Below, in pieces: positions 7,642 to 63,373 of a stretch of 64,000 nucleotides of DNA. The stretch lies in NCBI GenBank assembly GCA_019633425.1, contig WSUB01000038.1, positions 186,001 to 250,000 of the forward strand. Direction: 5' to 3'. Position 1 is the stretch's first letter. Every line of letters begins with the position of its first letter. A program made the translations under genes and the position numbers. The stretch is from Tulasnella sp. 424. Lineage: Eukaryota > Basidiomycota > Agaricomycetes > Cantharellales > Tulasnellaceae. Below the pieces are notes generated by a model. That model had not been told where the DNA came from, ran no database searches, and worked only from the letters and a program-made list of their open reading frames with translations.

Positions 7642-10600
7642 ATGGGGGAGTCCGACTCGACGGGGTCCCAGCTCATGGGAGACGCCGACCAAAAGCTAAA
7701 AAATGCTGTAAGGCTATTTCACCACTTGAGAGAACAGTTATTGAAATAGTATCTTCAAGCGAGAGATCCTTAGAGGAATGTCTTCCCGTCGAATCGATCC
7801 CGCCAGAATCAAAACGACAGAAACCCAACCTGGCATAAAAGGCGGCCAAGGCGTTGTCGTCATTGGAACACTTAGTCCCCCCGAAACAACAAAAGAAGGG
7901 GAACCCGACACGAAAGTGGCTGTGAAGAAGCTTGAATGGAACAGGGAGGATGTGGACGAGTCTGCAAAGTTTTTCAAGGTATCGTCGGCTGCGTCGACTG
8001 TGTTCATTGGTCTAACTGCTCGTTCTTAGTCTTTCGTCAACGAACTCAGTCTAATGGAATCACTTTCACACCCGAATATTATTATGCTCGTCGGATTCTT
8101 CGAAGACATGCAGAAAGGAGACGCTTGGATGATTTTGCCCTGGGAAGGGAATGGCAACATTCGAGAATTTTTGCAGTCGGGGGAGTGGGATATTCCAGAA
8201 CGTATATCTCTGGTGAGTGCGATCTACAATGTTACGGAATATTTTAGTCACTGAGTTTGTGGTATCTGCAGATTCAAGATACAGCGAAGGGATTGGAGTA
8301 CTTGCATAGCCGACAACCCCCGATTTGTCACGGTGACCTCAAATCCGTGAGTTCTTTGAGTCCTTTTCTCAGAGACTTCGACCTAACGTGATTGTTCTTC
8401 AGTTTAACATCCTTGTCAACTCCTCCTACCATGCGGTTATCACCGACTTTGGGTCGGCCCGTATTAGACGAGACCTCGCACCAGCGAAAATGGACGATGG
8501 GTCGGCCTGGGCTGCGGCCTTTGGGGACACAGCCGCAGAGTCGATATCCCCAAAGGTCCAGCTCAACCCTTCCACTTTGGAGCTGACCTTGACTGGGCCG
8601 AAGTTCTCTCTACGGTGGACAGCTCCCGAGGTGCTGAATAACGGGACCCAGGATTTACCCAGCGACATGTGGGCTTTGGCGTGGGTTGCCTGGGAAGTGA
8701 GTCGTGTACGGTTCAGCTTCTTGCTACCTTCCGTGAACTGACAACTGTGGCGAACCGTCAGGTTGTAACTGGGAAGATCCCCTTTAACGATCTCAATGTT
8801 GAGTCCGTCATTATAGTACATGCCATTAAGGGAAAATTGCCCGAGATTCGGAAGGAAGCCGACCTGTCCGAGGTTCTCAAGCTCTGCAGTCTGATGACGG
8901 ATTGTTGGCTCTCGGATCCTGCGAAAAGGATCCAGGCTTCCACCTTTCAGCGAAGCGTTTACATGATGGTGAGCGCTTTGGTACCGAGTGGGTTGATCGA
9001 TTCTGAAATGAATCTTTTCAAGCCTTCCGAGACTCCTTCGGGTCATTCCAACGGTGGTCAGAAAGTTCGGTCTGCGAGCCTGCTCCTCGAGCTCGGGAGA
9101 ACATACAACCTTCAAGACGATGTAGCGATGGCCGAGTCTCACTTCCGGCCAGCCCTTGACGTTGCGAGTCGAACGAAAGATAGTTTCACGATGGCGAACG
9201 CGTTGAACAGCCTGGGGAACATTTATCGCACTCAGTCGAGGAATCAGGAGGCGGAGAAGGCTTTCACGGAAGCGTACGACATCCACTCTCGCATCGGGAA
9301 TGGCACGGGTACCGCAAACGCGTTGGAGGGCCTGGGAGAAATCCATCGCGCTCAGTCGAAGTATCAGGAGGCGGAGAAGGCTTTCACGGAAGCGCACGAC
9401 ATCCACTCTCGCATCGGGAATGACATCGGTACCGCAAACGCGTTGGTCGGCCTGGGGAATATTTATCGCGTTCAGTCGAGGAATCAGGAGGCGGAGATGG
9501 CTCTCACGGAAGCGTACGACATCCACTCTCGCATCGGGAATGACATCGGTACCGCAAACGGGTTGCAGAGCCTGGGGGATATTTATCACGCTCAGTCGAG
9601 ATATCAGGAGGCGGAGAAGGCTTTCATGGAAGCGCACGACATCCACTCTCGCATCGGGAATGGCATGGGTACCGCAAACGCTTTGCACGGCTTGGGAGAA
9701 ATCTATCACGCTCAGTCGAGGAATCAGGAGGCGGAGAAGGCTTTCACGGAAGCGCACAACATCCACTCTCGCATCGGGAATGGCATGGGTACCGCAAACG
9801 CGTTGCACGGCCTGGGAGAAATGTATCACGCTCAGTCGAGGAATCAGGAGGCGGAGAAGGCTTTCACAGAAGCGCACGAGATCCACTCCCGCATCGGCAA
9901 CGACAACGGTACTGCAAACGCGTTAGTCGGCTTAGGCAATACCTATCGCGCTCAGTCGAGGAATCAGGAGGCGGAGAAGGCTTTCACGGAAGCGCACGAT
10001 ATCCACTCTCGCCTCGGGAATGACCTGGGTTCCGCAAACGCGTTAGGCGGCCTGGGACAAATCTATCGCGCTCAGTCGAGGAATCAGGAGGCGGAGAAAG
10101 CTTTCACAGAAGCGCACGAGATCCACTCCCGCATCGGCAACGACAACGGCACTGCAAACGCGTTACTCGGCTTAGGCAATACCTATCGCGCTCAGTCGAG
10201 GAATCAGGAAGCGGAGAAGGCTTTCACGGAAGCGCACGACATCTGCTCTCGCATCGGGAATGACATCGGTACCGCAAACGCGTTGCAGGGCCTGGGACAA
10301 ATCTATCGCGCTCAGTCGAGGAATGAGGAGGCGGAGAAGGCTTTCACAGAAGCGCACGAGATCCACTCTCGCATCGGCAACGACAACGGTACTGCAAACG
10401 CGTTAGTCGGCTTAGGCAATACCTATCGCGCTCAGTCGAGGAATCAGGAGGCGGAGAAGGCTTTCACGGAAGCGCACGATATCCACTCTCGCCTCGGGAA
10501 TGACCTGGGTTCCGCAAACGCGTTAGGCGGCCTGGGACAAATCTATCGCGCTCAGTCGAGGAATCAGGAGGCGGAGAAAGCTTTCACAGAAGCGCACGAG

Positions 10601-12256
10601 ATCCACTCCCGCATCGGCAACGACAACGGCACTGCAAACGCGTTACTCGGCTTAGGCAATACCTATCGCGCTCAGTCGAGGAATCAGGAAGCGGAGAAGG
10701 CTTTCACGGAAGCGCACGACATCTGCTCTCGCATCGGGAATGACATCGGTACCGCAAACGCGTTGCAGGGCCTGGGACAAATCTATCGCGCTCAGTCGAG
10801 GAATGAGGAGGCGGAGAAGGCTTTCACAGAAGCGCACGAGATCCACTCACGCATCGGCAACGACAACGGTACTGCAAACGCGTTAGTCGGCTTAGGCAAT
10901 ACCTATCGCGCTCAGTCGAGGACTCAGGAGGCGGAGAAGGCTTTCACGGAAGCGCACGACATCCACTCTCGCATCGGCAACGACAACGGTACTGCAAACG
11001 CGTTAATCGGCTTAGGCAATACCTATCGCGCTCAGTCGAGGAATCAGGAGGCGGAGAAGGCTTTCACGGAAGCGCACGACATCCACTCTCGCATCGGCAA
11101 CGACAACGGTACTGCAAACGCGTTAATCGGCTTAGGCAATACCTATCGCGCTCAGTCGAGGAATCAGGAGGCGGAGAAGGCTTTCACGGAAGCGCACGAC
11201 ATCCACTCTCGCATCGGGGATGACATTGGTACCGCCAACGCGTTGGACGGCCTGGGAGAAATCTATCACGCTCAGTCGAGGAGTCAGGAGGCGGAGAAGG
11301 CTTTCACGGAAGCGCACGAGATTCACTCCCGCATCGGCAACGACAACGGCACTGCAAACGCGTTACTCGGCTTAGGCGATACCTATCGCAATCAGTCGAG
11401 GACTAGCGAGGCTGAAAAGGCTTTCAACCACGCCCACAACCTCTACTCTCGAATCGGAGACATCCAGGGCTCCGGGAACGCGTTACGCCTCCTCGGAATG
11501 CTTTATAGTGACCAGTGCAGATACGCCGATGCGGAGGCGTCCTACCGCCTAGCAGCCGCTTCTTATGAGGATGCTGAGGATGGTGACAGCAAAGCCCAAA
11601 CACTCCTAGCCCTCGGGCGAGATCATCATACTCAGCGCAGATATCCTGAGGCAGAGGAGGCAGTCATCGAAGCCCTTGCTATTCGGATCAGCATTGGCAA
11701 CGAAAACGGTCAAGCAGTCGCTTTGTCGCTCTTGGCACGGATTTTCGAATCTCAATCAAGGGTGGAGGAAGAAAAGGATGCGCTCATTCAAGCTGAAGTT
11801 ATATATGCCCGAATCGGCCGTGATGCATCTCGCGCTGCGACATTGGACCGGCTCGGCGATATCCACTTTGCTCAGGGCACGTACGACGAAGCTGAGGAGT
11901 GTTACCGCCTTGTTCAAGCTATCTTCTCAAACATGAACGACGTTCGCAGTGAAGCTACCGCGTCGCTCAGTCTTGGGAGGATGTACGTCCTCCAGGATCG
12001 ACACGACGAGGCGGAGGAGTGCTTCGCCGACGCGCGTGTTGCATACGCTAGCATTGGAGACGTGGAGGGTGAAGCCAAGGCGTTGGATGGATTGATGGGG
12101 GCAAAAGCTTTGCAAGGCAAATTTGTCGATGCGAAAGCTGCTTGTGTGGAGGCTCGCGAAATGTACGCGCAAATGGGGTGGCCGATGAGTGAGATGTGTG
12201 CCGACGTCTGGGAAATTCTCCAAGCTCAGGAGCAACCAAGCGGATCGATGTTATAA
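7642..12256 (+). CDS. Kinase-TPR protein A (26 TPRs)
   Basis: Exons 7642-7707, 7760-7978, 8030-8212, 8272-8346, 8403-8696, 8762-8968 and 9023-12256 join, all in phase 0, to about 1425 residues. The kinase-like domain (about 45-345) shows K-G-G-Q-G-V-V for the glycine loop, VAVKK (Lys78), C-helix Glu100, CHGDLK (Asp178), DFG (Asp196) and APE (255-257). HGD instead of HRD makes it a non-RD, TKL-like kinase, probably active. The 62-residue activation segment is unusually long. About 26 TPRs follow: one N-terminal, 19 nearly identical 40-residue units and six divergent C-terminal ones. The start is chosen because the 22-residue first exon is conserved in paralogs. No signal peptide or membrane helix is seen, so it is probably cytosolic. 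The ligand and target are unknown. Confidence 0.85.
9193..11470 (+). repeat. 120-bp coding minisatellite (TPR units of A)
   Basis: Nineteen tandem 120-bp units each encode 40 residues of the form A-N-A-L-x-G-L-G-x-x-Y-x-A-Q-S-R, then EAEKAFTEAH-x-IHSRIGN. Many neighbours differ at only a few bases; 10981-11100 and 11101-11220 differ only at the very end. The frame never breaks because the period is a multiple of three. Long antisense and alternative-frame openings over this stretch are by-products of the repeat. Confidence 0.95.
9901..10860 (+). repeat. 480-bp higher-order duplication in TPR array
   Basis: Four TPR units at 9901-10380 are repeated at 10381-10860 with, by eye, a single base difference (CTCTCGC near 10367 against CTCACGC near 10847). 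A fifth unit start (10861-10920) again matches 9901-9960. This points to a very recent unequal exchange or gene conversion of a four-unit block. Confidence 0.9.
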
Positions 12257-12297
12257 GCGGGTCTTTTCCAGTCACGGCGACCCACCGCCTTGATGAG

Positions 12298-12361
12298 GTA
12301 GGTATTCATGGGTCCATAGGTTATACCCCTTTTCACGTGGTTAATGCCTCTCGTTTTCCAG
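12298..12361 (+). other. Predicted intron in the 3' UTR of A
   Basis: A donor GTAGGT lies 41 bases after the stop codon and an acceptor TTTTCCAG ends at 12361. The equivalent pair is kept after genes B, C and F, although the flanking sequence is otherwise more diverged. A 3' UTR intron is therefore likely. No transcript evidence is available. Confidence 0.5.
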
Positions 12362-12802: not shown

Positions 12803-13430
12803 CTTGACTCAATTTCAGTACTGTCATACTGGCTCCGTGTAACTTATCGTCGAAAGAGTTACTCCGTTGATGGGGTTATATTCCTCCACCTGCCTGCCAC
12901 TTTTCCAGCCGCTTTTGACATCTCGACTACCCTCCGCAACGATTCTTTCCTATGTCCACTCGAAGCTAGTCACCGCAGAGGTCAAGAATTGGAACCACCA
13001 AGATTCCTTTCCTGGAATGTTCTCTCAGACGCCATTATGCAGGTATCAATTGCCGACCCAAATATATACTGTGCACGGTCCTCGATCCGTTGAGAATTTG
13101 GCATCCTTGTACTCGAACTCAGATGTCAGTGTGCGGCGGCCTTCTCGCGGCTCAGCGGACATCGCAGCGCGCTGGGGTGCTGGTCACAGGGACTCGGATC
13201 TTTGTCGCGGTCGACTTGGACCGGTTGGAGTTCGACCTTCAATGGGGCTGTGACGGGGGCTCAAGGTGATTGGTCGAATGCTGACGATCAGGGGAACCTT
13301 CCCAACTCCGAGCGAGACTCGTCAATCCGTGGGGTTATGGTCCCTTCGATTTCTTTCCTTCCCTTTGAGTTCAAATCGGATGTGGAGTGACGTAATCGCA
13401 CTCGTCACATAAAATGAACACAACACGTCT
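12803..13430. repeat. Spacer block shared downstream of A and D
   Basis: The segment starting TTGACTCAATTTCAGTACTG is found again from about 36473 to 37090 after gene D with only scattered differences, and a weaker version lies at 29110-29330 after gene C. It shows no long conserved open frame. It marks the downstream part of the duplicated unit. Confidence 0.75.
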
Positions 13431-13439
13431 TCAGCGTCA

Positions 13440-18211: not shown

Positions 18212-21200
18212 ATGGTGGAGTCTGACTCGACGACGTCCCAGCTCGCCGGAGACGGCGACCAAAAGCTAAAACATGCTGTAAGGGTATTTCACGACTTGAG
18301 AGAACGAATGCTGACATAGTATCTTCAAGCGAGATATCCTTAGTGGGATGTCCTCCCGTCGAATCGATCCGGCCAGAATCAAAACGACAGAAACCCAACC
18401 GGGCATAAAAAGCGGTCAAGGTGTTGTTGTCATTGGAACACTTAGTCCCCCCAGAGCAAGGAAGGAAGGGGAACCTGAAACTAAAGTGGCCTTGAAGAAG
18501 CTTGAATGGAAGCGGGAGGATGCGGAAGAGTCTGCAAAGTTTTTCAAGGTATCGTCGGCTGTGTTGACTGGGCTCATTGTTCTAACTGCTCGTTCTTAGT
18601 CTTTCGTCAACGAACTCAGTCTGATGGAATCACTTTCGCACCCGAATATTATTATGCTCATTGGATTCGTTGAAGACATGCAGAAAGGCGACGCTTGGAT
18701 GATTTTGCCCTGGGAAGGGAATGGCAACGTTCGAGAATTTTTGCAGTCAGGGGAGTGGGAGATTCCAGAACGTATATCTCTGGTGAGTGCGATCTACAAT
18801 GCTACGGAATATTTTGGTCACTGAGTTTTTGGTATATGTAGATTCAAGATACAGCGAAGGGATTGGAGTACTTGCATAGCCGACAACCCCCAATTTGTCA
18901 CGGTGACCTCAAATCTGTGCGTTCTCTGAGTTTTTCTCAGAGACTTTGACCTAACATAATAGTCCTTCAGTTTAACATCCTAGTCAACTCCTCCTACCAT
19001 GCTGTTATCACCGACTTTGGGTCGGCCCGTATTAGACGAGACCTCGCACCAGAGAAAATGGACAATAGGTCGGCTTGGGCCGCGGGCTTTGGGGACACAG
19101 CCACTGAGCCGATATCCCCAAAGGTCCAGTTCAACCCTTCCACTCTGGAGCTCACCTTGACCGGGCCGAAGTTCTCTCTACGTTGGACAGCTCCCGAGGT
19201 GCTGAATAACGGGACCCAAGATTTACCTAGCGACATGTGGGCTTTGGGGTGGGTTGCCTGGGAGGTGAGTCGGGCACGGTTCAGTTTCTGGCCATCTTCC
19301 GTTAACTTACAACTGTGGCGACATGTCAGGTTGTAACTGGGAAGATCCCCTTTGACGGTCTCAATCTCGAGTCGGTCATTATAGTACATGCCATTAAGGG
19401 GAAATTGCCGGAGATTCGGAAGGACGCCAACCTGTCCCTTGTTCTCAAGCTCTGCAGTCTGATGACGGATTGTTGGCTCTCAAATCCTGCGAAAAGGATC
19501 CAGGCTTTGACCTTTCAGCGAAAGGTTGACAAGATGGTGAGCTCTTCGGTATAGAGTGAGGGAATCGATTTCTGAAATGAATCTCTTCAAGCCTTCTGTG
19601 ACTCCTTCGGGTTATTCCGCCGGTGGTCAGAAAGTTCGGTCTGCTCACCTGCTCCTCGAGCTCGGCAGAACATACAACCTTCAGGACGACCTAGAAAAGG
19701 CCGAGTTCCATTTCCGGTCATCCCTTGATGTTGCGAGGCGAACGAAAAATAGTTTGGCGATGGCGAACGCCTTGCATTGCCTTGGGGGTGTTCACCACGC
19801 TCAATCAAGGCATTCGGAGGCGGAGAAGGCTTTCACGGAAGCGCACAAAATACAATCTCGCATCGGGAATGACGTGGGTACCGCAAACGAGTTGCAGGGC
19901 TTGGGGAATGTTTATCGCGCTCAGTCGAGGAGTCAGGAGGCGGAGAAGGCTTTCACGGAAGCGCACGAAATACAATCTCGCATCGGAAATGACGTGGGTA
20001 CCGCAAATGCGTTGCAGGGCCTGGGGAATGTGTATTGCGATCAGTCGAGGAACCGGGAGGCGGAGAAGGCTTTAAAGGAAGCGCACGAGATTCACTCCCG
20101 CACCGGGAATGACCTGGGTACTGCCAACACGTTGTTGGGCCTGGGGAATATTTATCGCGCTCAGTCAAGGGGTCAGGAGGCGGAGAAGGCTTTCACGGAA
20201 GCGCGCGACATCTACTCCCGCATTGGGAATGACGTGGGTGCCGCAAACGCGTTGTACGGCCTGGGGGAAATCTATCGCACTCAGTCGAGGAATCAGCAGG
20301 CTGAGAAGGCTTTCATGGAAGCGTATGACATCCACTCTCGTATCGGGAACGACATGGGTGCCGCAAGCGCGTTGGACGGTCTGGGAGAAGTGTATCACAT
20401 TCAGTCGAGGAATCAGGAGGCGGAGAAGGCTTTGACGGAAGCGCACGAAATCCACTCTCGCATCGGGAGTGACACGGGTACCGCAAACGCGTTGGACGGT
20501 CTGGGAGAAATCTATCGCGCTCAGTCGAGGTATTCAGAGGCGGAGAAGGCTTTCACGCAAGCGCACGACATCCACTCTCGCATTGGGAATGGCATGGGGG
20601 CCGCAAACGCGTTGCAGGGCCTGGGAGAAATCTATCGCGATCAGTCGAGAAATCGGGAGGCGGAGAAGGCTTTCACGGAAGCGCGCGAGATTCACTCCCG
20701 CATCGGCAACGACCAGGGCACTGCAAACGCGTTAGTCGGCTTAGGCAATACCTATCGCACTCAGTCGAGGACTAGCGAGGCTGAGAAGGCGTTCAGCGAC
20801 GCACACAACATCCACTCTCGAATCGGAGACATCCAGGGCACCGGGAACGCGTTACGCTGTCTCGCAATACTTTATAGTAACCAGTGCAGATACGACGATG
20901 CGGAGGCGTCCTACCGTCTAGCAGCAGCTTCCTATGATGATGCTGGGGACGTTGACAGCAAAGCCCAAACACTCCTAGCCCTCGCCGAAGATTATCATAC
21001 CCAGCGCAGGTATCCCGAGGCGGAGGAAGCTGCCACTGAAGCCCTTGCCATTTGGATCAGAATTGGCGACGAGGAATTTCAAGCGGGCGCTTTGTCGCTT
21101 TTGGCACGGATCTTCCAATCTCAATCAAGGAGTAACGAAGAAAATGATGCGCTCATTCAAGCTGAAGTTCTATATGCCCGAATCGGCCATGATTCATCTC

Positions 21201-21625
21201 GCGCAAAGACATTGGACCGGCTCGGCGATATCCACTTCGCTCAGGGCACGTACGACGAAGCAGAGGAGTGCTACCGCCTTGCTCAAGCTTTATTCTCAAG
21301 CATGGACGACGCTCGTGGTGAAGCCATCGAGTTGCTTGGTCTCGGAGGGTTATACGTTCTCCAGGATCGACACAAGGAGGCGGAGGAGTGCTTCGCCGAC
21401 GCGCGTGCAGCATATGCTAAGATTGTCGACGTGGAGGGTGAAGCCAAGGCGTTGGATGGCTTGATATGGGTACACGCCCTGCAAGGCAAATGTTTGGATG
21501 CGAAGGCTGCTTGTGTGGAGGCTCGAGAAATGTACGCGCAAATGGGCAGGCCGATGAGTGAGATGTGCGCAGACGTTTGGACATTTCTCCAAAGTCAGGG
21601 GCAACCAAGCGGATCGATGTTATAA
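18212..21625 (+). CDS. Kinase-TPR protein B (16 TPRs)
   Basis: Exons 18212-18277, 18330-18548, 18600-18782, 18842-18916, 18971-19264, 19330-19536 and 19592-21625 give about 1025 residues. The kinase residues are intact: VALKK (Lys78), Glu100, HGD (Asp178), DFG (Asp196) and APE. Intron 4 starts with GTGCGT, a weaker donor. Intron 6 is 55 nt with an in-frame stop, so it must be spliced here, which fixes the same intron in the paralogs where it could be read through. Sixteen TPRs follow: one N-terminal, nine consensus and six divergent C-terminal units. The closest relatives are A and D. The protein ends in the shared tail P-S-G-S-M-L. Confidence 0.85.
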
Positions 21626-27800: not shown

Positions 27801-28960
27801 CGAACGCCTTAATCGGCTTGGGGAAAACCTATCGCGCTCAGTCGAGGGAGCAGGAGGCGGAGAAGGCTTTTACGGAAGCGCACGAGATTCACTCCCGCAT
27901 CGGCAGTGATTTGGGTGCTGCCAACGCGTTGCTCGGCCTGGGGAATATGTATAACGCTCAATCGAGGGATCGGGAGGCGGAAAAGGCGTTCACGGAAGCG
28001 CACGAGATCCATTCTCGCATCGGGAACAGCGTGGGTACCGCAAGCGCGTTACTCGGCTTGGGGAATACCTATTGCGCTCAGTCGAGGATTAGTGAGGCGG
28101 AAAAGGCTTTCAACGACGCCCATAGCATATACGCTCGCATCGGGGACCACCTCGGCACCGGCAACGCATTGAACAGTCTCGCAAGGCTTTATAGCGACCA
28201 ATCCAAATACCAGGACGCTGAGGCGTCTTACCGCCTAGCAGCCGCTTCCTATGATCATGCTGGGGATCGTGACAGCAAAGCCCGGACACTCCTAGACCTC
28301 GCGGAAGATCATCTCATCCAGGACGGATATCCCGAAGCCGAGGAGGCTGCCACCGAAGCCCTTGCCCTTTGGACCAGTATTGGCAACGAAAAAGGTCAGG
28401 CTGGTGCATCATTACTTCGTTCAAGGATCTTCAGGTGCCAATTACGGTATGACGAAGAAAAAGAGGCGCTAGCTCAAGCTGAATGTTCACTTGCCCGAAT
28501 TAACGACCACGACACACGCGCAGCGACATTAGATCGGCTTGGCGACATTCACTTCGCGCAGGGCGCGTACGACGAAGCGGAGGAGTGCTACCACCTTGCC
28601 CGAGATATATTCGCGAGCATGAAAAATGTGGACGATGAAGCTGCCGAGTTGATCTCTCTTGCGAGGTTGTACGTCCACCAAAGCCGACATCCCGAAGCCA
28701 AGGAGTGCTACGTCGAAGCACGCATCAGATACTCTCGGATCGGCGATGAAGAGGGCGAAGCAAAGGCGTTGGATGGATTAATAGGAGTACACGTGCTGCG
28801 AGGCGACTTCGTCGATGCGAAGGCTGCTTGTGTGGAAGCTCGTGAAATGTACGCACAAATGGGTCAACCGATGAGTGAAATGTGTGCAAAGGTTTGGAAA
28901 CTTTTCCAAGTTCGGGAGAAGCCCGCCGGGTCGATGGTGGCGGGTCCTTCTCAGCGGTAA
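24810..28960 (+). CDS. Kinase-TPR protein C (22 TPRs)
   Basis: Exons 24810-24869, 24922-25140, 25192-25374, 25431-25505, 25569-25862, 25928-26134 and 26189-28960 give about 1269 residues. The first exon is two codons shorter than in A. The kinase is complete: VAVKK (Lys76), HGD (Asp176), DFG (Asp194) and APE. The residue after the catalytic loop K-S is Gly (GNILVN) where others have Phe or Leu. About 22 TPRs follow: one plus 15 consensus plus six C-terminal. The units are clearly more diverged from each other than those of A, with no near-identical neighbours, so this array is older. The tail differs from the others, ending in AGPSQR. Confidence 0.85.
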
Positions 28961-47002: not shown

Positions 47003-50000
47003 ATGGCGGACCGTTGCTCGACGGCGCCCGAGCTCGCGGAAGACGCCGACCAAAAGCTAACGAAAGCTGTAAGGGTATTCTACGACCTGAGAGACCGGTT
47101 GCTAATATAGGATTTTTAAGCGAACTACTCTTAGCGGAATGTCCCATCGAATCCATCCTGCCAGAATCAAGGTCACAGGAACAGAACCGGGAAGAGAGGG
47201 TGACTATGGCGTCGTTATCATTGCAACACTCGGTCCCCCCGGAGCATCGAAGAAATGGGACTCTGAAACAAAATTGGCTATGAAGAGGCTTGACGGGAAG
47301 CGGGATGATCCGAAAGAGTCGGCAAAGTTTTTCAAGGTATCGTCGACTGCGTCGATTGTTCTCATCGTTCTAACCGTTCTTTCTTAGCCTTTCGTCAACG
47401 AGCTCATTACCAGGACATCCCTTTCTCTCTCTAACATTGTAATGCTTGTCGGATTTGTTGGAGACACGCAGAAAGGAAACCTTTGGATGATATTGTCTTG
47501 GGAAGGGAACGGCAATGTTCGAGAGTTTTTGCAGTCCGCCGAGTGGGATATCGCAAAGCGTATATCTCTGGTGGGTGCAGTCTGCAATGCAAGGAAATAT
47601 TCTAGTCGCTGAGGTTTTCGTATCTATAGATTCAAGATACAGCAAAGGGACTGGAGTACTTGCATAGCCAACAACCTCCCATCTGTCACGGTAACCTCAA
47701 AGCCGTGAGTTCCCCGAGTCCCTTTCTCAGAGACTTCAACCTGATCTTTTCATTGTCGTTTAGTTCAACATCCTTGTGAACTCTTCATACCGTGCGGTTA
47801 TCACCCACTTCGGGTTAGCTCGTAATCAGCGAAGCCTGGCGCCGGAGGAAAAGCAAAATGAGTCGGCTGGAGCTCAGGCTCGTGAGGACGCAGCTGCCGG
47901 GCCGATCTCCCCAAAAGTTCAGTTCAACGCTTTCACCATGGAGCTCACCTTAACCGGGCCAAAGTTCTCCCCGCAATGGATAGCTCCAGAGGTGTTGAAT
48001 CACGGGATCCTAGATTTACCCGGTGACATGTGGGGTTTGGGGTGGGTTTCTTGGGAGGTGAGCCTAGCACGGTTCAGTTTCGGGCCATCGTCCAATAACT
48101 TACAACTACTGCTCCACGTTAGATTGTAACTGGGAAGATACCTTTTGACGGACCCAATCCCGAGTCCACCACCGTAGTACACGTCATAAATGGAAAATTG
48201 CCCGCGATTCAGAAGGAGATCAATCTCTCCCTCGTTCCCAAGCTGTGCGGTGTGATGTCGGACTGTTGGGTCTTGGATCCAGCCAAGAGGGTTCATGTTG
48301 TAGCTTTCCAGCGGAAAGTCGACAACATGGTGAGTTATTTGATAGAGAGTGAATTCAACGATTCTGAAATGGCCCTCTTTCAGCCTTCCGAGACTCCGTC
48401 GGGCTGCACCTCCAGTGGTCAGAAATTACGGTCGGCAAGCCCACTGCTCGAGCCCGGGAGGACATCCGACCCCCAGGACGATCGCGCAACGGCCGAGTCC
48501 CACTTCAGGTCAACCCCAGATGTTGCGACCAGTAATTTGGCGAAGGCGAATGCCTTGGATTTCCATGGGAACGCCCTCCGCGCTCAGTCGAAGAATTTGG
48601 AGGCGGAGAAAGCTTTCGCGGAGGCGTACGAGATCCACTCCCGGATCGGCAACGACCTGGGCGCCGCAAACGCGTTACTCGGCCTGGGCAATATCTACGA
48701 CGCTCAGTCAAGAAATTCGGAGGCGGAGAAGGCTTTCGCCGACGCGCATGCGATCCACTCTCGCATTGGCAATGACACGGGTGCGGCCAACGCGTTACAG
48801 GGTCTGGGCAATATAAACCGCGCTCAGTCGAGGAATGCGGAGGCGGAGAAAGCTTTCACCGAAGCGCGCGAGATTCAGTCTCGCATCGGCAATGACGTCG
48901 GTGCTGCAAACGCGTTGCAAGGTCTAGGCAATGCTTATCGCGCTCAGTCGAGGTATCGGGAGGCAGAGACGGCTTTCGCGGAAGCGCACGATATCCACTC
49001 TCGTATCAGCAACGACATGGGCGCCGCAAACGCGTTGCAAGGTCTAGGGAATGTTTATCGCGTTCAGTCGAAGTCTCGGAAGGCGGAGAAGGCTTTCAAG
49101 GAAGCACATCAGATCCACTCTCGCATCAACAATGACCTCGGGGCTGCCAACGCGTTGGTCGGTCTGGGCAATACCTATCGCGCTCATTCAAGGAGTGAGG
49201 AGGCGGAGAAGGCCTTCACGGAAGCACACGAAATCCACTCTCGCATCGGCAGTGACAGGGGCACCGCAAACGCGTTAGTCGGTTTGGGGCAAATCTATCG
49301 GGCTCAGTCGAGGAATCAGGAGGCGGAGAAGGCATTCACCGAAGCATATAAGATTCATTCTCGAATCGGCAATAACCTCGGTGCTGCAAACGCGTTGCTC
49401 GGCCTGGGCAAGACTCATCGAGCTCAGCGGAGGTATCAGGAGGCAGAGAAAGCCTTCACGGAAGCGCATAGGATCCAATCTCGCACCGGCAATGGCATGG
49501 GTGTCGCAAACGCGTTGGACGGCCTGGGACAAATTTATCGCGCTCAGTCGAAGAATCGGGATGCGGAGAAGGTTTTCAGAGAAGCACACAAGATCCATTC
49601 TCGCATCGGCAGTGACAGGGGCACCGCAAACGCGTCAGTCGGCTTGGGGTATACCTATCGTGCCCAGTCGAAGACTAGTGAGGCAGAAAAGGCTTTCATC
49701 GACGCCCACATCATCTACTCTCGCATTGAGGACGACCTCGGCACCGGCACCACCTTGCACAGCCTGGCAATGCTCTATAGCGACCAGTGCAGATACGACC
49801 ATGCGGAAGCGTCCTACTGCCTAGAAGCCGCTTCTTATGGTCGTGCCAACGACCGTGAAAGCAGAGCCCGAACACTCCTAGCCCTCGGAAAGGACCGTCA
49901 TACCCAGCGCCTATACCCCGCCGCCGAGGAGGCTGCCAACGAAGCTCTCGCCATGTTTATCAGCACTGGCAATAAAGTAGGTCAAGCGACTGCTTCGTTG

Positions 50001-50459
50001 CTTCTATCACAAATATTCAGGTCCCAGTCAAGATACGACGACGAGAAAAAGGCACTGATTCAAGCTGAAGCCACACTTGCCCAAATCGACGATACTGCCG
50101 CACGTGCTGCGACATTGGACCGGCTTGGGTCTGTTCACCTAGCCCAGGGCATGCATGACGAAGCGGAGGACTGCTTTAGCTTTGCCAAAGCTATATTCTC
50201 AAGCATGGAAAATGTTCGCGGTGAAGCCACCGAGCTGCTCCGTCTTGCAAAGCTGTACATCCTCCAAGGTCGACATAGCGACGCGGAGAAGTGCTTCACC
50301 GAGGCGCGGGCTGGATACGCTAGGATTGGCGACGAGGAGGGCGTGGCAACGGTGTTGGATGGATTGAGGGAGCTATACGCTCTGCAACGCAGGTCTGTCG
50401 ATGTGAAGACTGTTTGTGCGGAAGCTCGCGAATTGTGGGCGCGAATGGCCGGCCGATGA
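47003..50459 (+). CDS. Pseudokinase-TPR protein F (17 TPRs)
   Basis: Exons 47003-47068, 47121-47336, 47388-47570, 47630-47704, 47764-48057, 48123-48329 and 48384-50459 give about 1038 residues with no stop. The fold is recognisable, but both catalytic aspartates are gone: HGD is HGN (Asn177) and DFG is HFG (His195). The glycine loop is also altered (G-R-E-G-D-Y-G) and VAVKK is LAMKR, keeping Lys77. It should not be able to transfer phosphate. Seventeen TPRs follow: one rather decayed N-terminal unit, ten consensus and six C-terminal. A one-base deletion near 50450 makes an early TGA and removes the last 25-30 residues present in A, B and D. An open frame of this length suggests it is still made, as a decoy or scaffold, or died very recently. 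Confidence 0.8.
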
Positions 50460-52200: not shown

Positions 52201-52202
52201 CT

Positions 52203-52571: not shown

Positions 52572-55500
52572 ATGGCGGACGAAACAGTGCCTGAGCTCAC
52601 GGGGGCGCAGGAGCAAAAACGGGCTGTAAGCAGATGCCGTCGCAGCTCCTGATATTGGCCGCTGAGGCGGTTTCCTAAAGCGAGATATCCTCAACGAAAT
52701 GGCTGGTCACCGAATTGATCCAAGTAGAATCAAAACTAATAATACCAAACCATGTGCAAAGGGTGGTCAAGGCGTCGTTATAGTCGCCACCCTTCTACCA
52801 GCTGGAGGAGCGGCAACACCAGAGTCCGAGAAAATGGTGGCAGTCAAGAAACTCGAATGGAAGTCCGAAGACGCGGAGAAGTCGATGAAATTTCTCAAGG
52901 TACTCTTTGCGCTCCATAGCTCATCTTTGCTATTCTGACCGCTGTTCAACAGGGTTTTGTCAACGAGCTGAGCCTCATGGCAAGGCTTTCTCACCCCAAC
53001 ATCATCACCCTCCTCGGTTTTGTGGAGGATATGCAGAAGAGAGACGCATGGATTGTTTTGCCTTGGGAAGGGAATGGGAATGTTCGGGAGTTTTTGCAGT
53101 CGGGAAAGTGGGATGTTCCTGAGCGTGTCTCCTTGGTAAGTGCAAAGCGGGTCTACGTTCATTGGGGGTCCTGAACGAGCGATTACCCTAGATTCAAGAT
53201 GTATTAGATGGCGTGGAGTACTTGCACACTAGGGAACCTCCGATTTGCCATGGCGATCTTAAGTCGGTGCGTCGTGGAGGCGTTGTGTGACTCGCCCGCA
53301 CTAATCGACTCGCCTTTTAGCTCAATATTTTAGTCAACTCGCTCTACCACGCGGTTATTACGGATTTTGGTTCAGCTCGAATTAAACGAAGCGCACATGC
53401 GGCGAAACCGGACAGTGCGTCGGACCAACTTTCCCAGCAAGCGGACAGCATTCCTCAAGAACTGAAAATCAAATTCAACCCGACCACATTGGAGCTCACC
53501 TTAACCGGACCTGGATTCTCTCTGCGATGGACAGCTCCTGAAGTGCTGAATAACGGGGTGCAAGATTTACCCAGCGATATGTGGGCTGTGGGCTGGATCT
53601 GTTGGGAGGTGAGTGCTCTGCCGAACGGACGGTGCTCGAGGTCTCTTGGCTCACGCCCGTGGTCGCGCGTTAGATCATGACGGGAAAAATTCCATTTGAA
53701 GACCTCAAACTCGAGACCGCCATTATCGTGCACGTTATCCAAGGGAGATTACCAGCGATTCGAGAGGATGCCGAATTGTCCCATGTTCTCCAGCTCTGCA
53801 GTCTAATGTCAGACTGTTGGATCTCAAAGCCGGAAGGAAGGATTGATGCCTCCACTTTTCAGCAAAAAGTTCGCTTTATTGTGAGTGCTTTGATGCAGGT
53901 CGACCTTGTCGAGCCTAAAACGAACCATACATACACAGCCATCTGCTAGTCCTTCCGCCGACGCTTCTGAAGGCTCAAAAGTACGGTCAGCCGCATTACT
54001 ACGGGAGCTTGGAGAGATGTATCGCCTTCGGAGCGACCTGAAAATGGCCGAGTCTCACTATCGGTCAGCCATCGAGGTTGCGACTAGGACAAAAAACCAC
54101 GAGGTCGAGGCGGATGCGATCTATGGCCTGGGGAAAATTTACCACGCTCAGTCAAAAAATCAAGAGGCCGAGAAGGCTTTCAGCGAAGCGCACGAGATTC
54201 ACTCTCGCATAGGGAATGACCTGGGCGTAGCCCGTGCCTTGTGGGGTCTAGGAAGCGTCTACCGCACTCAATCAAGAAACTCTGACGCGGAGAAGGCTTT
54301 TGAAGAAGCCTACGAGATCCATTCTCGCCTCGGCGATGACATGGGTACGGCGGAAGTGTTGGAGGGCCTGGGAAATATCTATGTCGCCCGTTCGAAGTAC
54401 GGTGAAGCCGAGAAGGCTTTCAAGGAAGCCCGTGAGGTCTTTTCTCGCAGTGGAAACGACATAGACGTAGCGAATGCACTGGACGGTCTAGGAAGGGTCC
54501 ATCGTGCTCGATCAAATTACCCCGAGGCAGAGAAGGCCTTTATGGACGCCCGCGATATCCATATTCGGCTCGGCAATGACGGAGGCGCGGCGAACGCGTT
54601 GGACGGTCTCGGGGAGACTTACCACGCCCAATCAAAGAACCGCGAAGCCGAAAAGGCTTTGAAAGAAGTTCGCGAAATCCACTCTCGACTTGGCCACAAA
54701 TTGGGTGTTGCGAATGCGCTGGATACCCTGGGACATATTTATCGTGCCCAGTCGAAAAATCTCGAGGCCGAACAGGCATTCAACGAAGCGCACGAGATCC
54801 ACTCTCGCCTTGGGAACGGCCTAGGCGCGGCAAATGCGCTCAATGGCTTAGGTCATGTCTATATCGCTCGCTCGATGTTTCCTGAAGCGGAAAAGGCTTT
54901 GAAAGAAGCCTACGAGATCCATTCTCGCGTCGGTAGCGATGTAGGTGCAGCCCACGCGTTGCAGGGTCTCGGGGACATCTATCGCGTTCATTCAAAGTAT
55001 CCCGAGGCTGAGAAGGCATTCAAAGATGCCCAAAAGATCTATTCCCGCATTGGCAGTAACCTCGGCGTGGCGAATGCGTTGGACAGTCTCGGAGAGATAT
55101 ACTGTGATCAATTTAATTACCCGGAGGCCGAGCAGGCTCTCAAGGAAGCACATAACATGTATTCTCATCTTGGCGACGACTTGGGTGCGGCGAATACGCT
55201 GGTCGTCTTAGGAGAGATCTTCCGCGCTCGTTCAGAGTACCCCGAGGCTGAGAGGGCTTTCAAGGACGCGCATAGGATTTACTCTCGGGTGGGAAACGAC
55301 CTGGGTGTTGGGAATGCGCTGGATTGTCTGGGACAGGTATATCAGACTCAGTCGAACTATACCGAGGCGGAGAAGGTTCTCAAAGAAGCCCACGACATTC
55401 ATTCCCGGCTTGGCGATAACCTGGGTGTTGGCAATGGATGCCGTGGTCTCGGAACACTTTACCACGCTCAACGCCGAGACGAGGAGGCGGAGCTATGGTT

Positions 55501-55738
55501 CAGTAAAGCGCTCGGTGCCTACACTTGCGCTGACGATGATGAGAGCAGAGCAATCACATTGCTCTTGCTGAGCGAGGTCTTGCGCGGTCAAGGCCGGACC
55601 CTCGAGACAATGGATTCCCTCAAGGAAGCCTCCGCCATTTTTACTAGCATCGGTCACGATGAAGGCCAGGCGGCTGCTTCCTTACTTTTGTCGGCTACCG
55701 TTGATTCTCAATCAGAACCAGTAGTATCATCTTCTTGA
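52572..55738 (+). CDS. Kinase-TPR protein G (about 14 TPRs)
   Basis: Exons 52572-52625, 52681-52899, 52953-53135, 53192-53266, 53321-53608, 53674-53880 and 53939-55738 give about 941 residues. The kinase is intact: VAVKK (Lys74), HGD (Asp174), DFG (Asp192) and APE. Intron 6 (58 nt) is required because the kinase and TPR frames differ. About 14 TPRs follow, clearly diverged from one another. The protein stops after ASLLLSATVDSQSEPVVSSS, so the last three to four C-terminal TPRs and the A-K-A-A-C-V-E-A-R-E tail of the other copies are missing. It lies outside the region of duplicated spacers, so it split from A-F earlier. Confidence 0.85.
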
Positions 55739-56916: not shown

Positions 56917-58878
56917 ATGAGTCAACTGAGCTTCGCGCTACGCCCAGTGGCGATGAGTACGAATGAAGCGTTGGCGTTCTGTGGAGGCACGCGTGTGGGA
57001 GAGGGACGAATTTCTACCTTAATGGTAAGCTTTTCCTTGCCGGTTGAGATGTTTCCGACGATCTGAAATTCGAGATTTCTAACGTTTCGGATGCATTTGC
57101 GAACCAAGACCGCCAGCGCTCAGAGTAAAACCACCGGCGAGCAAGATGTGGTTATCCTGTCGACCGACACGCACGAGGATGGATCCACAACGTCGTGCCT
57201 CGAGAGTGGAAGGCAACCTTCCGATGAGCAAATAGAAATGGATTGGGTGGTGAGTGGACACGTGCCCGCGTTGCCTTCGCGAGCTTATGCCTTCTTGTAG
57301 CCCTCCCCCTTACCGTCATCAACCTCAACCTCCTCGTCTGAATCTCCATCAACGATCGACATGGTCGATCTTCTCGAAGAACGCCACTCACAAAATAACT
57401 CGGATGCAGCCGAGTCCCGGCTTCGATCTGCGTTGGCTGTCGCTGGATCGTCAGACGATGACGCAGCACCTGCTACTGCGCTCATCAAAATCGGCCACAT
57501 CCAGCGCTCTCAATCAAAATATGAGGAGGCCGAGGAATCATTTACCCTGGCGCAAGCCACCTACTTCAGCCTGGGTGACGACCAAGGTCAAGCAAACGCC
57601 CTATTTGGTCTTGGGCAGACCCAATATGCCCAGTCCAAGTACACCGAAGCCGAGGAATCCTTTACACAGGCTCTCACAATTCGCCAAAACGGCAATAACG
57701 ACGCGGGTATCGCTTCCACTTTCCGAGCACTGGGTCAAATTCATTTTGCCCAGTCCAAGTACAGCGATGCTGTGAAATTCCTTACCCAAGCCGGAGACCT
57801 GTATGCTTCTCGTGGGGACAACCGAAGACGGGGAGGCATCTTAGAACGGCTCGGAAACGTCCACCGAACCTATTCAAAGTTACGTGAGGCAGAAGAATGC
57901 TACTCCCTCGCAGAGGGCGTCTTCGCCAGTATTGGGGACGACCTGGGCCAGGCAAAATGCCTACTCGCTCTAGGAAATATCCACTCTACCAAGTCCAATC
58001 ACCAGCAACCGTCGTCCTTCTTCACTCGGGGCCTTAGTCTATACACAAGTCCAAGCAAGGCCAAAGGGATGCCAAACACCCTCCGCGCGATTGGAGAGTC
58101 CCTCCTCCTTTTATCAAGGCACACAGAAGCGGAAGAGGCATTCACTCTAGCGCATGGTGTTTACGTCAGTGTCGGTGACAGCCGGGGTCAAGCCAACGTG
58201 CTATGTAGCTTGGGGAAATTATACTGCGCCCTTTCCAATTACGGAGAAGCGGAGAGATCGTACGTCCGTGCCCAAGATATCTATGATAATCTCGGATGCG
58301 AACTGGGAAAAGCAAACACACTCCGTGGCCTTGCCGAGGTTCAACGGAGTCAAGCCCGGTATGACGATGCTGAGGAGTCGTATGACCTCGCGCAAGCTAT
58401 ATATTGCAGCATTCGTAACGACCTCGGTCAGGCCAACGCTCTCCTTGGCCTCGGAGAAATCCACCATTCAAGGTCCAAATATACCGAGGCTACCGACTCG
58501 TTCAGGCGAGCCTCCGAGTTGTACGTTGGAATCCACCACGAGTTGGGGCAAGCAAACGCTCTGGATGGGTTGGGCAAAGTTTACTTCCAGCAAGATAAAT
58601 ACCGCGAATCGAAGGATTCCTACCGTAAAGCTCGGAGCCTATATGCCCGGCTGGGTCGAAAGATCAGCCGAGCCTCCGATGTCAAGTGGAAAGCGCTTCG
58701 AGCGTTGGATGGAGTCTACAAAAAATTGGGTTACGTACCCTCCTCCGTCAAGATAAAACTGACAGGAGGGGCCGAAAGTTGGAGCGTGCGTATAATCGTA
58801 GATTCTGGGAAAGGGAAATCTTCAATAGGAACTCAACCGATGGAAAGACACCTTCGGCCTCCTTCTGGTTTGGCATGA
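56917..58878 (+). CDS. TPR-only protein H (about 10 TPRs)
   Basis: Proposed exons 56917-57024, 57124-57249 and 57301-58878, all phase 0, give about 603 residues. The last intron (57250-57300, GTGAGT...TTGTAG, 51 nt) is convincing because it joins two open frames precisely; the first is less certain and an alternative acceptor exists near 57108. Residues 1-98 are low-complexity with a Ser/Pro/Thr run and show no kinase motif. About ten 40-residue TPRs follow (for example ALFGLGQTQYAQSKYTEAEE), with Q-S-K-Y and L-G-Q-A-N signatures that place it beside the array. The C-terminal 80 residues are not TPR. It could be a kinase-less paralog or partner. A kinase exon further upstream was looked for and not seen. 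Confidence 0.7.
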
Positions 58879-59721: not shown

Positions 59722-62700
59722 ATGAGCGACAGCGAAGATGACAAGGGCAGCATGCCTCAATTCCAAGGAAGCAAACGGTCGTCGGTAGGTCGTAATACAT
59801 AACGCCCACAAGGTCGCAGACTCATAGAATCGCTTCAGAGAGCGATCCTGGATGGAATGGGCAAGTATCGAATTCTACCAAGTCGAATCAAACCTTTTGG
59901 GAGCGGTCCAATTGGGCGCGGCGGAAAAGGCGACGTAAGGCTATCAAAACTCGTAGCGCCAGAGGACGAAGAAGATCCGTTCGCAGCCGAAGTTGAAGTC
60001 AACGTTGCGGTCAAGGCACTGAGATTCACCGATAGCGAGAACAAAAATCGAATGCTTGGGGTGTGTTCAGAATATGTATACTTGATTATAAGGGCACCTC
60101 TCTCTAACCATCAATCCTTCTAAGCCTTTCGTACACGAGTTCAAGATGATGACTGAACACTCTCACCCTAATATTGTTGATGCCATTGGGTTCGTCGAAG
60201 ACATCGAGAATGGAATTGCGTGGGTGGTCTTGCCTTGGGAGGCCAACGGCAATGTTCGAGAGTTTCTGTCATCTGGCAATTGGGAGATCCCTGAAAGGAT
60301 ATCTCTGGTGAGTGCGGTAAATGTGCTTTACGCGAGGTTACTTAAACTCTCCATACGATAGATCCAAGATGTTGCGGACGGTCTGAACTACCTCCATTCT
60401 CGCGATCCTCCTATTTGTCACGGGGATCTCAAATCCGTATGTCGTTTCCTCGACCCTTTTAGCGCTTCTCATTAATTTCCCCTCTGTTCTAGTTGAACAT
60501 TCTTGTAAACTCTATCAATCGTGCTGTGATCACCGATTTTGGCTCGGCTCGAACTATGAGGCCGTCCAAAAAGAACGATCTGACCAGACCAAACGCTGAA
60601 ACCCCTCTACTCGACCTGGCAACAATAAAGAGTTCTGAGGCTCTCAAAATCGAGATCACTACGTCCCACACAGAGCTTACTTTGAGTGGCCCAGCTTGGT
60701 CGCTCCGCTGGGCAGCGCCCGAAGTCCTTGCTGGAGGCGACCCGGACTTGCCCAGTGATATCTGGGCTTTTGGGTGGGTCTGCTGGGAGGTGAGTGTTGC
60801 CTGCAGTGCTGGTGAACCATCCCTGAAGCTCATTCTCACGATACGTCAGATCATCACTGGCAAATTGCCATTTCAGGAGTCCAATCATGAGCCGGCCATT
60901 GTGTTCAAGGTCATTCGGGGTCAATTGCCTTCGGCTCTTGATGATGACCAAGCATCTCAGATCGCCAGGTTGAGTTATTTGATGACCGCCTGTTGGGTAT
61001 CCGACGCTTTGAAGAGACCTAGTTCTCGGTACTGCAGAGAAGAGATCTACTCCATGGTACGTTGTCCTTCGAGATTAGAGAACCGAGGTTTGACTTGGCG
61101 TTTCGTAGCCGACGGTTGTCCCGTCCAGTTCTAAAAGTACAAGCGGTGGAAAAATTCGCTCAATCGAGCTTCTCACTACGATGGCCAGCATGGAGAAACG
61201 GCAGGGCAACGAGCAAGAAGCTGCTTCCCTCTATAAACAGGCCTTGGCCATCGCCCGATCTACCGCCGAGGAGTCCACGATAAGTAATATTTTACTTGGA
61301 CTCGGGGACGTCTACCATGGTGCATCCAAGCATGACCTGGCGATGGAGGCGTACGATGAAGCGCACAGTATCTCCTACCGGATCGGAGACCAGCTCGGAG
61401 TTGGAAACGCTTCAAGGAAGCTTGGGGATGTGTACGCCAGTCGCTTCGAACTTTCCAAGGCGCAGGAGTTGTATGTCAAATCGGCCGATATCTTCGCCCA
61501 GCTGCAGACGGCAGCTCAGCCAAGTCAACCCGACGTGCTCAGTGCTTTACTGGGCCAAGGCCTCCTCTACATGAACCAGCATCGCCTCTCTCAAGCAGAA
61601 TCATGCTACTCCCGAGCACGAGATATGTCTGTCGAGCAGGGGAACGAAGATAACCGATCGAACGCTTTACGAGGGTTGGGAGATGTTTTCTGCCGTCGAC
61701 AGGAGTTCCAGAGCGCAGCTCAGCACTACCGCGAGGCCTTAGATGTCTCTACTCGAGTTGGCAACCATTTGGGGCGCTTGTCCGCTCTAGATGGACTTGG
61801 GAGCGTGTACATAGCGTGGAACGAGATTTCCCAGGCGGCCACCTACTTCAGCGAGGCTCGAGATCTCGCCTCATCGCTTAACGCAAGCGGTCCGCGGGTG
61901 AATGCCATCGCCAGGCTAGGAGATTGCTTCACTGCCCAATCCGACTACGGCTCTGCTGGACCATGTTTCAATGAAGCAATGAGGTTCTACACCGAAAGTG
62001 ACGACCATGTTGGTAGAGGCCACACGCTCTGCAGTATCGCGGTGGCACATTCCTACCAGTCCCAGTACGACGAAGCCTTAACTGCGTACGAAGAAGCCTG
62101 GGCCATCTTCACTAGCATCGGATACGATTTGGGAGCAGCCAATGCATACTTCGGGCTCGGAGACGTGTACAAACGGCAGTCAAATATCGGGCAGGCATTA
62201 AAAGCGTTCAACGAAGCCGCTATGATGTACGCGACTATTGGTAGTCATTTGAACGCGGCCGGGACATTCCAAGAGCTAGGACGGCTTCATGCCGTTCAGC
62301 TTGAGCGGTTCTATTCCGAAAACGTAGACGAGGAGGAGGAGGAGCAGCGTACCACCGAAATCGCGGCCGAAGATGCTGCATCCCATCTAGCTCAAGCTGT
62401 AATTGCGTACGACAAGGCGAATAAGCACTGTGTCGCCGGTGGTTATCACTCCCTCAGAACCAGTGCTTTGCTGGGACTCGGATCAATGTACGAGCGATTG
62501 AAAGAACACGCGGAGGCAGAGAAATGTTACAGCGAAGCAAGGGGGGTGTTCGCAAAGCTCGGAGAGGACGTTGGGGAGGCGGCGACGTTACTGCTCCTTG
62601 GACAAGTCCACGCAGCCCGTTCTCAATATGCTGAGGCAGAGAGATACTATGCGGAGGCCCTGGAGTTCTATGCCAGAATCGGCGGCGACGACGAGAAAGC

Positions 62701-63373
62701 AGCTGCCCTGAAGGGACTCGCCACTGCTTACCTTCATCAATCGGAATGTGAAAAGGCCCAAGCTGCGTTCATCGAGTACGGAAACCTCAACGTCCGCTTG
62801 AAGAGGGAGGACGAAAAAGCAACTGCTCTGATCGGACTGGCGAATGCGTTTGCCGTCCAAGGGCAGTTCGACAAGGCAGAAGCTGCTTTTGTCCGTGCAC
62901 GGCGGATATTGTCGACACTGAACAGCAAGCGAGGTGTTGCGGTAACGATAGCTGGGCTGGCCCAGATTTACGCGGCTCAGTCAAAGTACTTCAAAGCAGA
63001 AAACTTCTACATTCAAGCCGAAAACCTTTACATCCAGTTCGGAGATGAGTTGGGAGTGGCAAATTGTCGGGCGGGACGGGGAGATATCTGCGTCAAGATG
63101 TCGTGCTTCTCCACGGCAGAAAAGCTATACACGATGGCACGGGCTCTCTATGCAAAGCTGGGAGTGGAGGATGAAGTCCGGAAAACCACTGCCAAAATGG
63201 CACATGCCGAAGCGGTTCTCAAGGCTAGGCGGGAAGCGCTACCAACAGGAATCTTCGCGTGGCTACTGGAGCGGGAGAAGGAGTCGGAGGAGCAAGCGGA
63301 AAAGGACACAGAAGAGAAGGATGACAGCGACTCGGGGGAAAAGGACGAGGACAAATTAGAAGAGGAGGAATAG
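59722..63373 (+). CDS. Kinase-TPR protein I (about 16 TPRs)
   Basis: Exons 59722-59784, 59839-60060, 60125-60307, 60362-60436, 60493-60789, 60850-61056 and 61109-63373 give about 1103 residues. All six introns sit where they do in A-G; the last acceptor (CGTAG at 61108) is chosen because it continues as S-T-S-G-G-K-I-R-S, equal to S-A-G-G-Q-K-V-R-S of the paralogs. The kinase keeps the canonical G-R-G-G-K-G-D-V loop, Lys80, HGD (Asp178), DFG (Asp196) and APE. About 16 TPRs are individually diverse. One carries an acidic insert (NVDEEEEEQRTTEIAAEDAA), and the protein ends in a strongly acidic Glu/Asp/Lys tail that the others lack. It may be closest to the ancestral gene. Confidence 0.85.

Follow-up and report, generated by a model that had tools for sequence, protein, structure and literature searches.

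The window analysed here is a stretch of 64,000 nucleotides (nt) from the basidiomycete Tulasnella sp. 424 (contig WSUB01000038.1, labelled C312, part of a genome of 46.85 Mb in 448 contigs). It carries nine loci, all on the plus strand and arranged head-to-tail from the first ATG at 7642 to the last stop at 63373. Eight of them encode a protein kinase followed by a long array of tetratricopeptide repeats (TPRs), and one encodes TPRs only. We propose that the kinase-TPR proteins are intracellular recognition receptors, in which a ligand in the TPR groove would switch a non-RD kinase without a NACHT or NB-ARC step, and we put the probability of this reading at about 0.6. It draws on the domain order, the lack of a match to a nucleotide-binding oligomerisation domain (NOD), the conserved kinase, change at groove positions of the repeats, turnover and the scale of the family. 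The design is that of a constant enzyme with a variable grip, for which a sensor kinase is the most economical reading. The original prediction had described the array with its common intron positions, a non-RD kinase, turnover of repeats, one pseudokinase, one kinase-less member and neither NACHT nor NB-ARC. All of these are borne out below, and its interpretation of the array as a recognition locus is partly supported.

A tblastn search with the exons of the first kinase found eight kinase copies in the window, each followed by a long TPR exon. All eight genes, numbered here by their order in the array (1-7 and 9, the TPR-only gene being 8), consist of seven exons, and the six predicted introns lie at positions common to 8/8 of them. 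The encoded kinase-TPR proteins (n=8) comprise 785-1425 amino acids (aa). Their last exons encode 437-1077 aa, which would make approximately 11-27 units at 40 aa each. Gene 8 holds about 12, and the 14-26 TPRs given previously thus stand as an approximation. Regular repeats in genes 1-7 number 6 to 19. Pfam searches matched TPR_12 in 9/9 large open reading frames (ORFs; E 1.3e-252 to 7.1e-49) and PK_Tyr_Ser-Thr/Pkinase in all three kinase regions scanned (genes 1, 6 and 9). In each of the three, PF07714 (E 7.6e-39, 1.2e-31 and 4e-39, respectively) scored above PF00069, which points to a tyrosine kinase-like (TKL) type. Neither NACHT nor NB-ARC was found in the nine large ORFs (for gene 1 among the best 25 of 27 families), in these three of the eight kinase regions or in gene 8, and none of the 91 NACHT and 2 NB-ARC matches recorded in the genome lies on contig C312. 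By crude hydropathy, no transmembrane segment was found between kinase and repeats in the eight genes, a dedicated predictor not having been run. Windows of 19 residues reaching 1.6 or more occur only in genes 3 (two) and 5 (one) of the eight in this crude count, peaking at residues 99-101, inside the kinase.

The kinase domain is the constant part of these proteins. An alignment of 111 domains was built from the 8 of the window, 89 from six Tulasnella protein sets (one of them sp. 424) and 14 metagenome rows; 17 of 120 listed proteins had no usable kinase span and were left out. The kinases are of the non-RD type, with Gly in place of Arg in the HxD motif in 109/111 rows (one Ser, one gap). 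The catalytic residues K78, D178 and D196 are unsubstituted in 110/111 rows (one gapped at D178), the exception being gene 6 of the window, a pseudokinase with HGN for HGD and HFG for DFG. N183 is substituted in two rows, and so is the glycine of DFG. Between window genes kinase dN/dS (the ratio of nonsynonymous to synonymous change) is 0.10-0.38, i.e. purifying, with 26/28 gene pairs computable and several of them at high dS. A non-RD catalytic loop is common among plant immune receptor kinases. In genes 1-7 and 9 the activation segment (DFG to APE) is long, at 57-60 residues; it contains a conserved ELTL(T/S)GP motif, has low confidence in the model of a relative described below and is a possible regulatory site. 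By sequence, the best solved relative of the kinase is CTR1. The public name of the gene 9 protein (P0093), 'copper transport protein ctr1', is misleading and was perhaps transferred from the plant kinase CTR1.

Structure prediction is consistent with a kinase attached to a continuous superhelix. An AlphaFold2 model of the Tulasnella relative P0014 (860 aa, 28-row alignment) shows a kinase fold ending at about residue 314, a predicted linker of approximately 20 residues and a continuous TPR superhelix from residue 335, the first residues of the model having low confidence. Among solved structures, the kinase part comes closest in fold to tyrosine and TKL kinases and the superhelix to LGN; in this fold check (VIA-align 2) the region past residue 348 was barely covered except by LGN-type rows, which extend to residue 667. 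The TPR exon of gene 4, modelled by AlphaFold2 without an alignment, gave two good and three poor models out of five. The best one has a block with confidence of at least 90 at residues 21-290, and confidence is low in the C-terminal third. For this model, Foldseek placed LGN complexes at the top of the solved structures, with OGT and kinesin light chain after them. When solved structures were searched with the same exon at 0.001, a designed TPR protein and kinesin light chain came out on top, and the corresponding search with the TPR exon of gene 1 at 1e-20 gave 0 matches. TPR proteins such as LGN, OGT and kinesin light chain hold peptides in their inner groove.

Selection on the repeats was studied in a common 40-aa register comprising 77 units from the window and 349 from 27 other ORFs (426 in all). 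dN/dS was obtained from codon-by-codon pairwise counts within genes, and intervals were bootstrapped over ORFs. On the whole, the repeats of the window are under purifying selection (pN/pS 0.41, uncorrected). Pairs at least 75% identical occur in 31 of the 34 ORFs, and among these pairs dN/dS is 2.34 at position 5 (interval 1.66-3.22), 1.71 at position 38 (1.34-2.19), 1.62 at position 13 (1.12-2.32) and 1.45 at position 9 (1.04-1.97). Positions 2, 5, 9, 12 and 13, which we take to be the ligand positions of a TPR, scored above random sets of five both in the window (P 0.0055 and 0.0049) and in the 27 other ORFs (P 0.0005 and 0.00003), and the dN/dS profiles of the window and of the other loci are correlated (r 0.82). 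In the gene 4 model helix A spans positions -3 to 13, so that position 38 belongs to the opening turn of the helix A that follows. One face of the predicted helix A carries positions -2, 5, 9, 12 and 13, and the clustering of dN/dS on the helix has a P of 0.0045. Helix B remains at or below 0.75 in the helix-face count (P 0.017 for its own moment), and its exposed positions have a mean of 0.58. Synonymous diversity at the fast positions is ordinary (0.28 vs 0.26). When the register is rotated through all 40 settings, the true one comes out on top, with a position set that was fixed after seeing the data. By these counts, there is diversifying change among recent repeat pairs at positions predicted to line the concave groove. 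In Podospora, all positively selected sites in TPR motifs of NOD-like receptors (NLRs) are reported to lie on the concave side (PMC4986451).

The family extends far beyond the window. Sequence encoding ICHGDLK is present in 401 exact copies in the genome, as compared to 0 for the reversed pattern, and HRDLKxxN in 33 copies vs 1 for its control; since the two patterns differ in stringency, the ratio of 401 to 33 is rough, and 401 is a count of motifs rather than a gene-by-gene count of the family. NACHT matches in the genome number at least 91, and NB-ARC matches 2, both marginal. TPRs follow the kinase at 31/31 family loci examined outside the window, a non-random sample made up of 22 loci taken from the best kinase matches (L014-L035) and nine taken from the listed places of the pattern (L039-L047). 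In the former, 22/22 have an ORF with at least six matches to a TPR profile built from the window. In the latter, 5/6 of the first six pass three matches to the TPR profile at 0.01, and at 0.05 9/9 have at least five, those of L043 being split across two frames. Pfam analysis of nine ORFs from outside loci gave TPR and no NACHT at 1e-9. Of the 100 places listed out of 401, 59 lie no more than 12 kb from a second listed one (approximately 18.5% are expected under uniform spread), and 57 of those 59 share the strand of their nearest neighbour. Clusters of this kind are numerous in the genome, the window being one of them.

In protein searches, every species-named match among the best 120 of 426 and the best 120 of 402 belongs to Tulasnella, and members outside this genus are possible among the lower-ranked matches. 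A description of a fungal kinase-TPR receptor family was not found in the literature searched, a search that left most subscription journals outside. Two proteins of Tulasnella sp. 403, P0105 and P0113, have kinases related to the family and C-terminal WD40 repeats with no NACHT match at 1e-5, representing either a kinase-WD40 variant or fused annotations. They were considered as proof of a swap of sensors and were not used, each having three kinase stretches and maybe being a fused annotation.

Kinase identities of 46-89% to gene 1, together with spacers copied along with the genes, place the array beyond chance. The spacer 5' of gene 1 (4775-7529, plus strand) matches in three pieces, at 83-91%, the sequence 5' of gene 4 (30557-33147), and the spacer 3' of gene 1 (12803-13422, plus strand) matches that 3' of gene 4 (36474-37087) at 90%. 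Turnover is also seen within genes. Gene 1 contains a recent duplication of a 480-nt block of four repeats (9866-10825, plus strand), in which 1/480 positions differ. For 50/77 repeat units of the window the most similar unit lies in another gene, which fits old common repeats or exchange.

When the 111 kinase domains are placed in a tree, genes 1-6 come together in a single clade (support 99 in the Shimodaira-Hasegawa-like approximate likelihood ratio test, SH-aLRT), gene 7 is found in a clade of mixed composition and gene 9 belongs to another subfamily, but this tree holds few other copies from the sp. 424 genome. Upon addition of 29 exon-5 pieces from other contigs, the window genes interleave with them (7 changes for 8 window rows), gene 4 being nearest to copies on contigs C435 and C127, and a purely local family of genes 1-6 was therefore dropped. 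In the same tree, which has 99 columns and weak support, the copies of the sp. 424 genome group together (13 changes vs 26.4 when shuffled), and the five nearest rows of each of the four window genes with neighbours given all belong to this genome. Strict one-to-one conservation, which the original prediction had set against itself, was not seen between Tulasnella species: no one-to-one partner in another species appears in the kinase trees. As copies of one genome group together and yet the window is no unit of its own, expansion of the family probably took place in this species' own lineage, with dispersal of the copies to several clusters, as judged from these sequences. The grouping of copies of one genome and the turnover support the birth-and-death family that had been suggested. 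The array is not simply a local tandem family, the window genes being interleaved with those of other contigs.

According to the mechanism we propose, the inner groove of the TPR superhelix would take up a peptide or protein as ligand. Ligand binding would change the superhelix and thereby switch the attached non-RD kinase on or off, altering its activity with no NACHT or NB-ARC step between ligand and kinase. The ligands would be foreign or non-self, and the output may be a defence, incompatibility or symbiont-recognition response. Gene 6 with its dead kinase and gene 8 without a kinase may be decoys, regulators or dying copies. A wider claim, which we make tentatively and give somewhat less than an even chance, is that the NLR repertoire of Tulasnella has been replaced or greatly outgrown by a NOD-less class: hundreds of cytosolic non-RD sensor kinases with TPR grooves that would diversify by positive selection and repeat shuffling, and in which capture of a ligand would switch the kinase directly. 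On this claim, NLRs and membrane receptor kinases would be joined by a third kind of large repertoire for innate recognition.

Several points weigh against recognition receptors of this kind. A TPR groove can equally serve endogenous clients. When all pairs in the 34 ORFs are counted, the result is weaker, the interval exceeding 1 at positions 5 and 38 alone, as is expected if old pairs are saturated. Position 13 is high in the other loci and not in the window genes (0.56-0.59); position 2, mostly Asn (242/426), has a dN/dS of 0.77; position 10 is near 1; loop position 36, off the face of helix A, exceeds 1 in two counts (1.52 and 1.17); and position 18 in helix B reaches 1.08 (0.77-1.46) in an ORF-weighted count. 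The estimates are pairwise counts rather than a codon model, the pairs are non-independent and gene conversion could distort them. Mean internal repeat identity at the aa level is 0.81 in gene 1, with near-identical blocks, and only 0.55-0.69 in genes 2-7; the published criterion for NLR-like repeats is approximately 85% identity over at least 100 aa by T-reks, and our means come from a different count. Finally, among ten ORFs scanned in flanks and spacers two are transposon-related and eight have no match, so that no partner gene was found.

In a different explanation, the proteins would be substrate-adaptor kinases: each groove would recruit a specific endogenous protein to a common kinase, and expansion would have diversified internal signalling related to development, nutrients or host status. 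LGN and kinesin light chain, the nearest TPR folds, bind internal partners, and purifying selection on the kinase fits as well. Internal clients, however, should be conserved between species and favour one-to-one orthologues, whereas copies of the same genome group together. A fixed client would also not lead one to expect groove positions to exceed a dN/dS of 1 in recent repeats. We consider this explanation unlikely. Under neutral tandem growth, slippage and unequal crossing-over would multiply repeats and genes, and positions 5, 9, 12, 13 and 38 would merely tolerate change. Arrays, copied spacers and block duplication would arise without selection, and with all pairs most positions do not exceed 1, while loop position 36 is high as well. 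Tolerance alone agrees poorly with several results: in recent pairs the intervals of four positions exceed 1, independent loci repeat the profile (r 0.82), exposed positions of helix B have a mean of 0.58, and catalytic K, D and D are unsubstituted in 110/111 rows. We regard it as very improbable.

A further possibility concerns the nature of the ligand. The grooves might be directed at proteins of plants, bacteria or viruses that an orchid-associated fungus encounters, and play no part in fungal self/non-self recognition. That every species-named relative in the two protein searches (best 120 of 426 and best 120 of 402) is Tulasnella would suit such receptors, and so would a TPR-like transcript reported among the top 20 up-regulated ones at the pre-symbiotic stage of Tulasnella sp. 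SV6 (PMC11965168), which may or may not belong to the kinase-TPR family. The sequence, on the other hand, indicates no ligand class, and with strongly hydrophobic windows found inside the kinase alone (by crude hydropathy, with no signal-peptide predictor) ligands would probably need to reach the cytosol. A function confined to symbiosis or environment seems to us quite improbable.

Regarding the individual genes, exons 1-6 of gene 1, encoding the non-RD TKL-type kinase, span 7642-8968 (7642-7707, 7760-7978, 8030-8212, 8272-8346, 8403-8696 and 8762-8968), and exon 7 (9023-12256) encodes a TPR array of 1077 aa with 19 regular 40-aa units. The kinase exons of the following genes lie at 18212-19536 (gene 2), 24810-26134 (gene 3), 33221-34551 (gene 4), 40483-41816 (gene 5), 47003-48329 (gene 6, the pseudokinase), 52572-53880 (gene 7) and 59722-61056 (gene 9, of a different kinase subfamily). 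The TPR exons are found at 19592-21625 in gene 2, 26189-28960 in gene 3 (15 regular units), 34606-36411 in gene 4 (a helix pair per 40 residues in the best AlphaFold2 model), 41871-43184 in gene 5, 48384-50459 in gene 6 (10 regular units), 53939-55738 in gene 7 and 61109-63373 in gene 9. The sixth intron is placed after ...M and before PSxTPSG, between kinase and TPR exon. In genes 1 and 3-6 it has 54 nt and an open frame and could therefore be retained or spliced; in genes 2, 7 and 9 it is required for the frame. Genes 2 and 7 had been candidate pseudogenes, but are intact with this predicted intron, which takes out an apparent stop and frameshift in gene 2 (19537-19591) and restores the frame in gene 7 (53881-53938). 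The frame of gene 5 breaks late in the TPR exon, with no obvious intron to repair it; the end of the gene is shortened as read, and more TPR code follows in another frame up to 43633.

The TPR-only gene 8 spans 57361-58878, with a possible earlier start at 57091 or 57238 via a predicted intron at 57250-57300. A kinase remnant before it, suggested by weak tblastn matches at 56208 and 57100, was dropped after a profile search of all spacers, which gave 0 kinase matches, as did shuffled spacers. Gene 9 as a whole is 99.2% identical to the NCBI protein P0093 of Tulasnella sp. 424, while genes 1-7 are absent as full-length proteins of this fungus among the matches listed, which suggests that they are annotated publicly in pieces. 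The region 5' of the array (40-2497) includes a piece of a KDZ transposase (PF18758, E 3.5e-25, 1808-2494) and a CxC2/CxC1 cysteine cluster (40-765), and this transposon may have had a role in rearrangement. Another kinase of the family is located on the minus strand at C312:279236-279541, approximately 29 kb past the window.

Fungal immunity is discussed mostly in terms of NLRs with a NACHT or NB-ARC switch. If the reading as recognition receptors is true, a fungus can build a recognition repertoire of NLR scale around a kinase, with some 400 motif copies in one genome beside 33 of HRDLKxxN (a pattern of different stringency) and at least 91 NACHT matches, and with diversification focused on the groove. 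Two questions become accessible to experiment: which ligands are bound by the repeat domains of fungal receptors, and whether repeats can control a kinase in the absence of a nucleotide-driven oligomer. The puzzling TKL expansions in mushroom-forming fungi could also be accounted for in part, if kinases elsewhere bear such sensors.

Among known systems, the order of kinase and TPR is that of the plant brassinosteroid-signalling kinases (BSKs), which are myristoylated and carry few TPRs. The likeness to BSKs drawn originally fails at the myristoylation site, Gly2 being present in gene 1 only (1/8 kinase genes). Closer at hand, three loci of the same genome, L036-L038 on C268, C26 and C364, have Pfam kinase pieces together with NACHT in 3/3 and WD40 in L037 and L038, that of L036 being judged by eye. 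In these a kinase likewise heads a repeat receptor, so that such kinases already exist in this fungus; they differ from the array in belonging to another kinase subfamily (with an ICHADIKPEN loop in L036 and L038), in the presence of NACHT and in WD40 instead of TPR. Kinase and NACHT matches 1-2 kb apart on one strand occur at six places in the genome, four on C268, one on C26 and one on C392. TKL-like kinases are reported as strongly expanded in Laccaria and other mushroom-forming fungi (PMC2838846 and PMC3937382). The family is alike in this expansion, whereas most FslK kinases of Agaricomycetes, a fungi-specific TK-related lineage, have no additional domains (16/241 members are reported to have them, and TPR is unmentioned in the main text of PMC3937382).

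Serine/threonine kinases with C-terminal TPR or WD40 arrays and massive lineage-specific expansion are described for the bacteria Uabimicrobium and Myxobacteria (PMC11032199). They share the sequence of a kinase and a long tandem array, but are mostly membrane-spanning with periplasmic repeats. Fungal gasdermin-controlling proteases are reported to be fused directly to WD40, TPR or ANK repeats without a NOD (PMC12881547); the enzyme joined to superstructure-forming repeats is alike, and is a protease rather than a kinase. Fungal NLRs with TPR (for example PLP-1, PNT1 and the sesB-like/NB-ARC/TPR proteins of Podospora) are reported to have an N-terminal signalling domain and C-terminal superstructure-forming repeats, as here, and share diversifying selection on the concave side, changes in repeat number and clusters (PMC4986451, PMC12258605 and PMC12881547). 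The NLR clusters reported in Sordariales comprise 2-5 genes, 16/272 of them consisting of paralogous copies (PMC12258605), as compared to the same-strand array of nine in the window. The proteins scanned in the window have the C-terminal repeats of NLRs and give no match to the NOD that defines them. The kinase-TPR family resembles NLRs in the way its repeats evolve, although for want of a NOD it does not belong to them.

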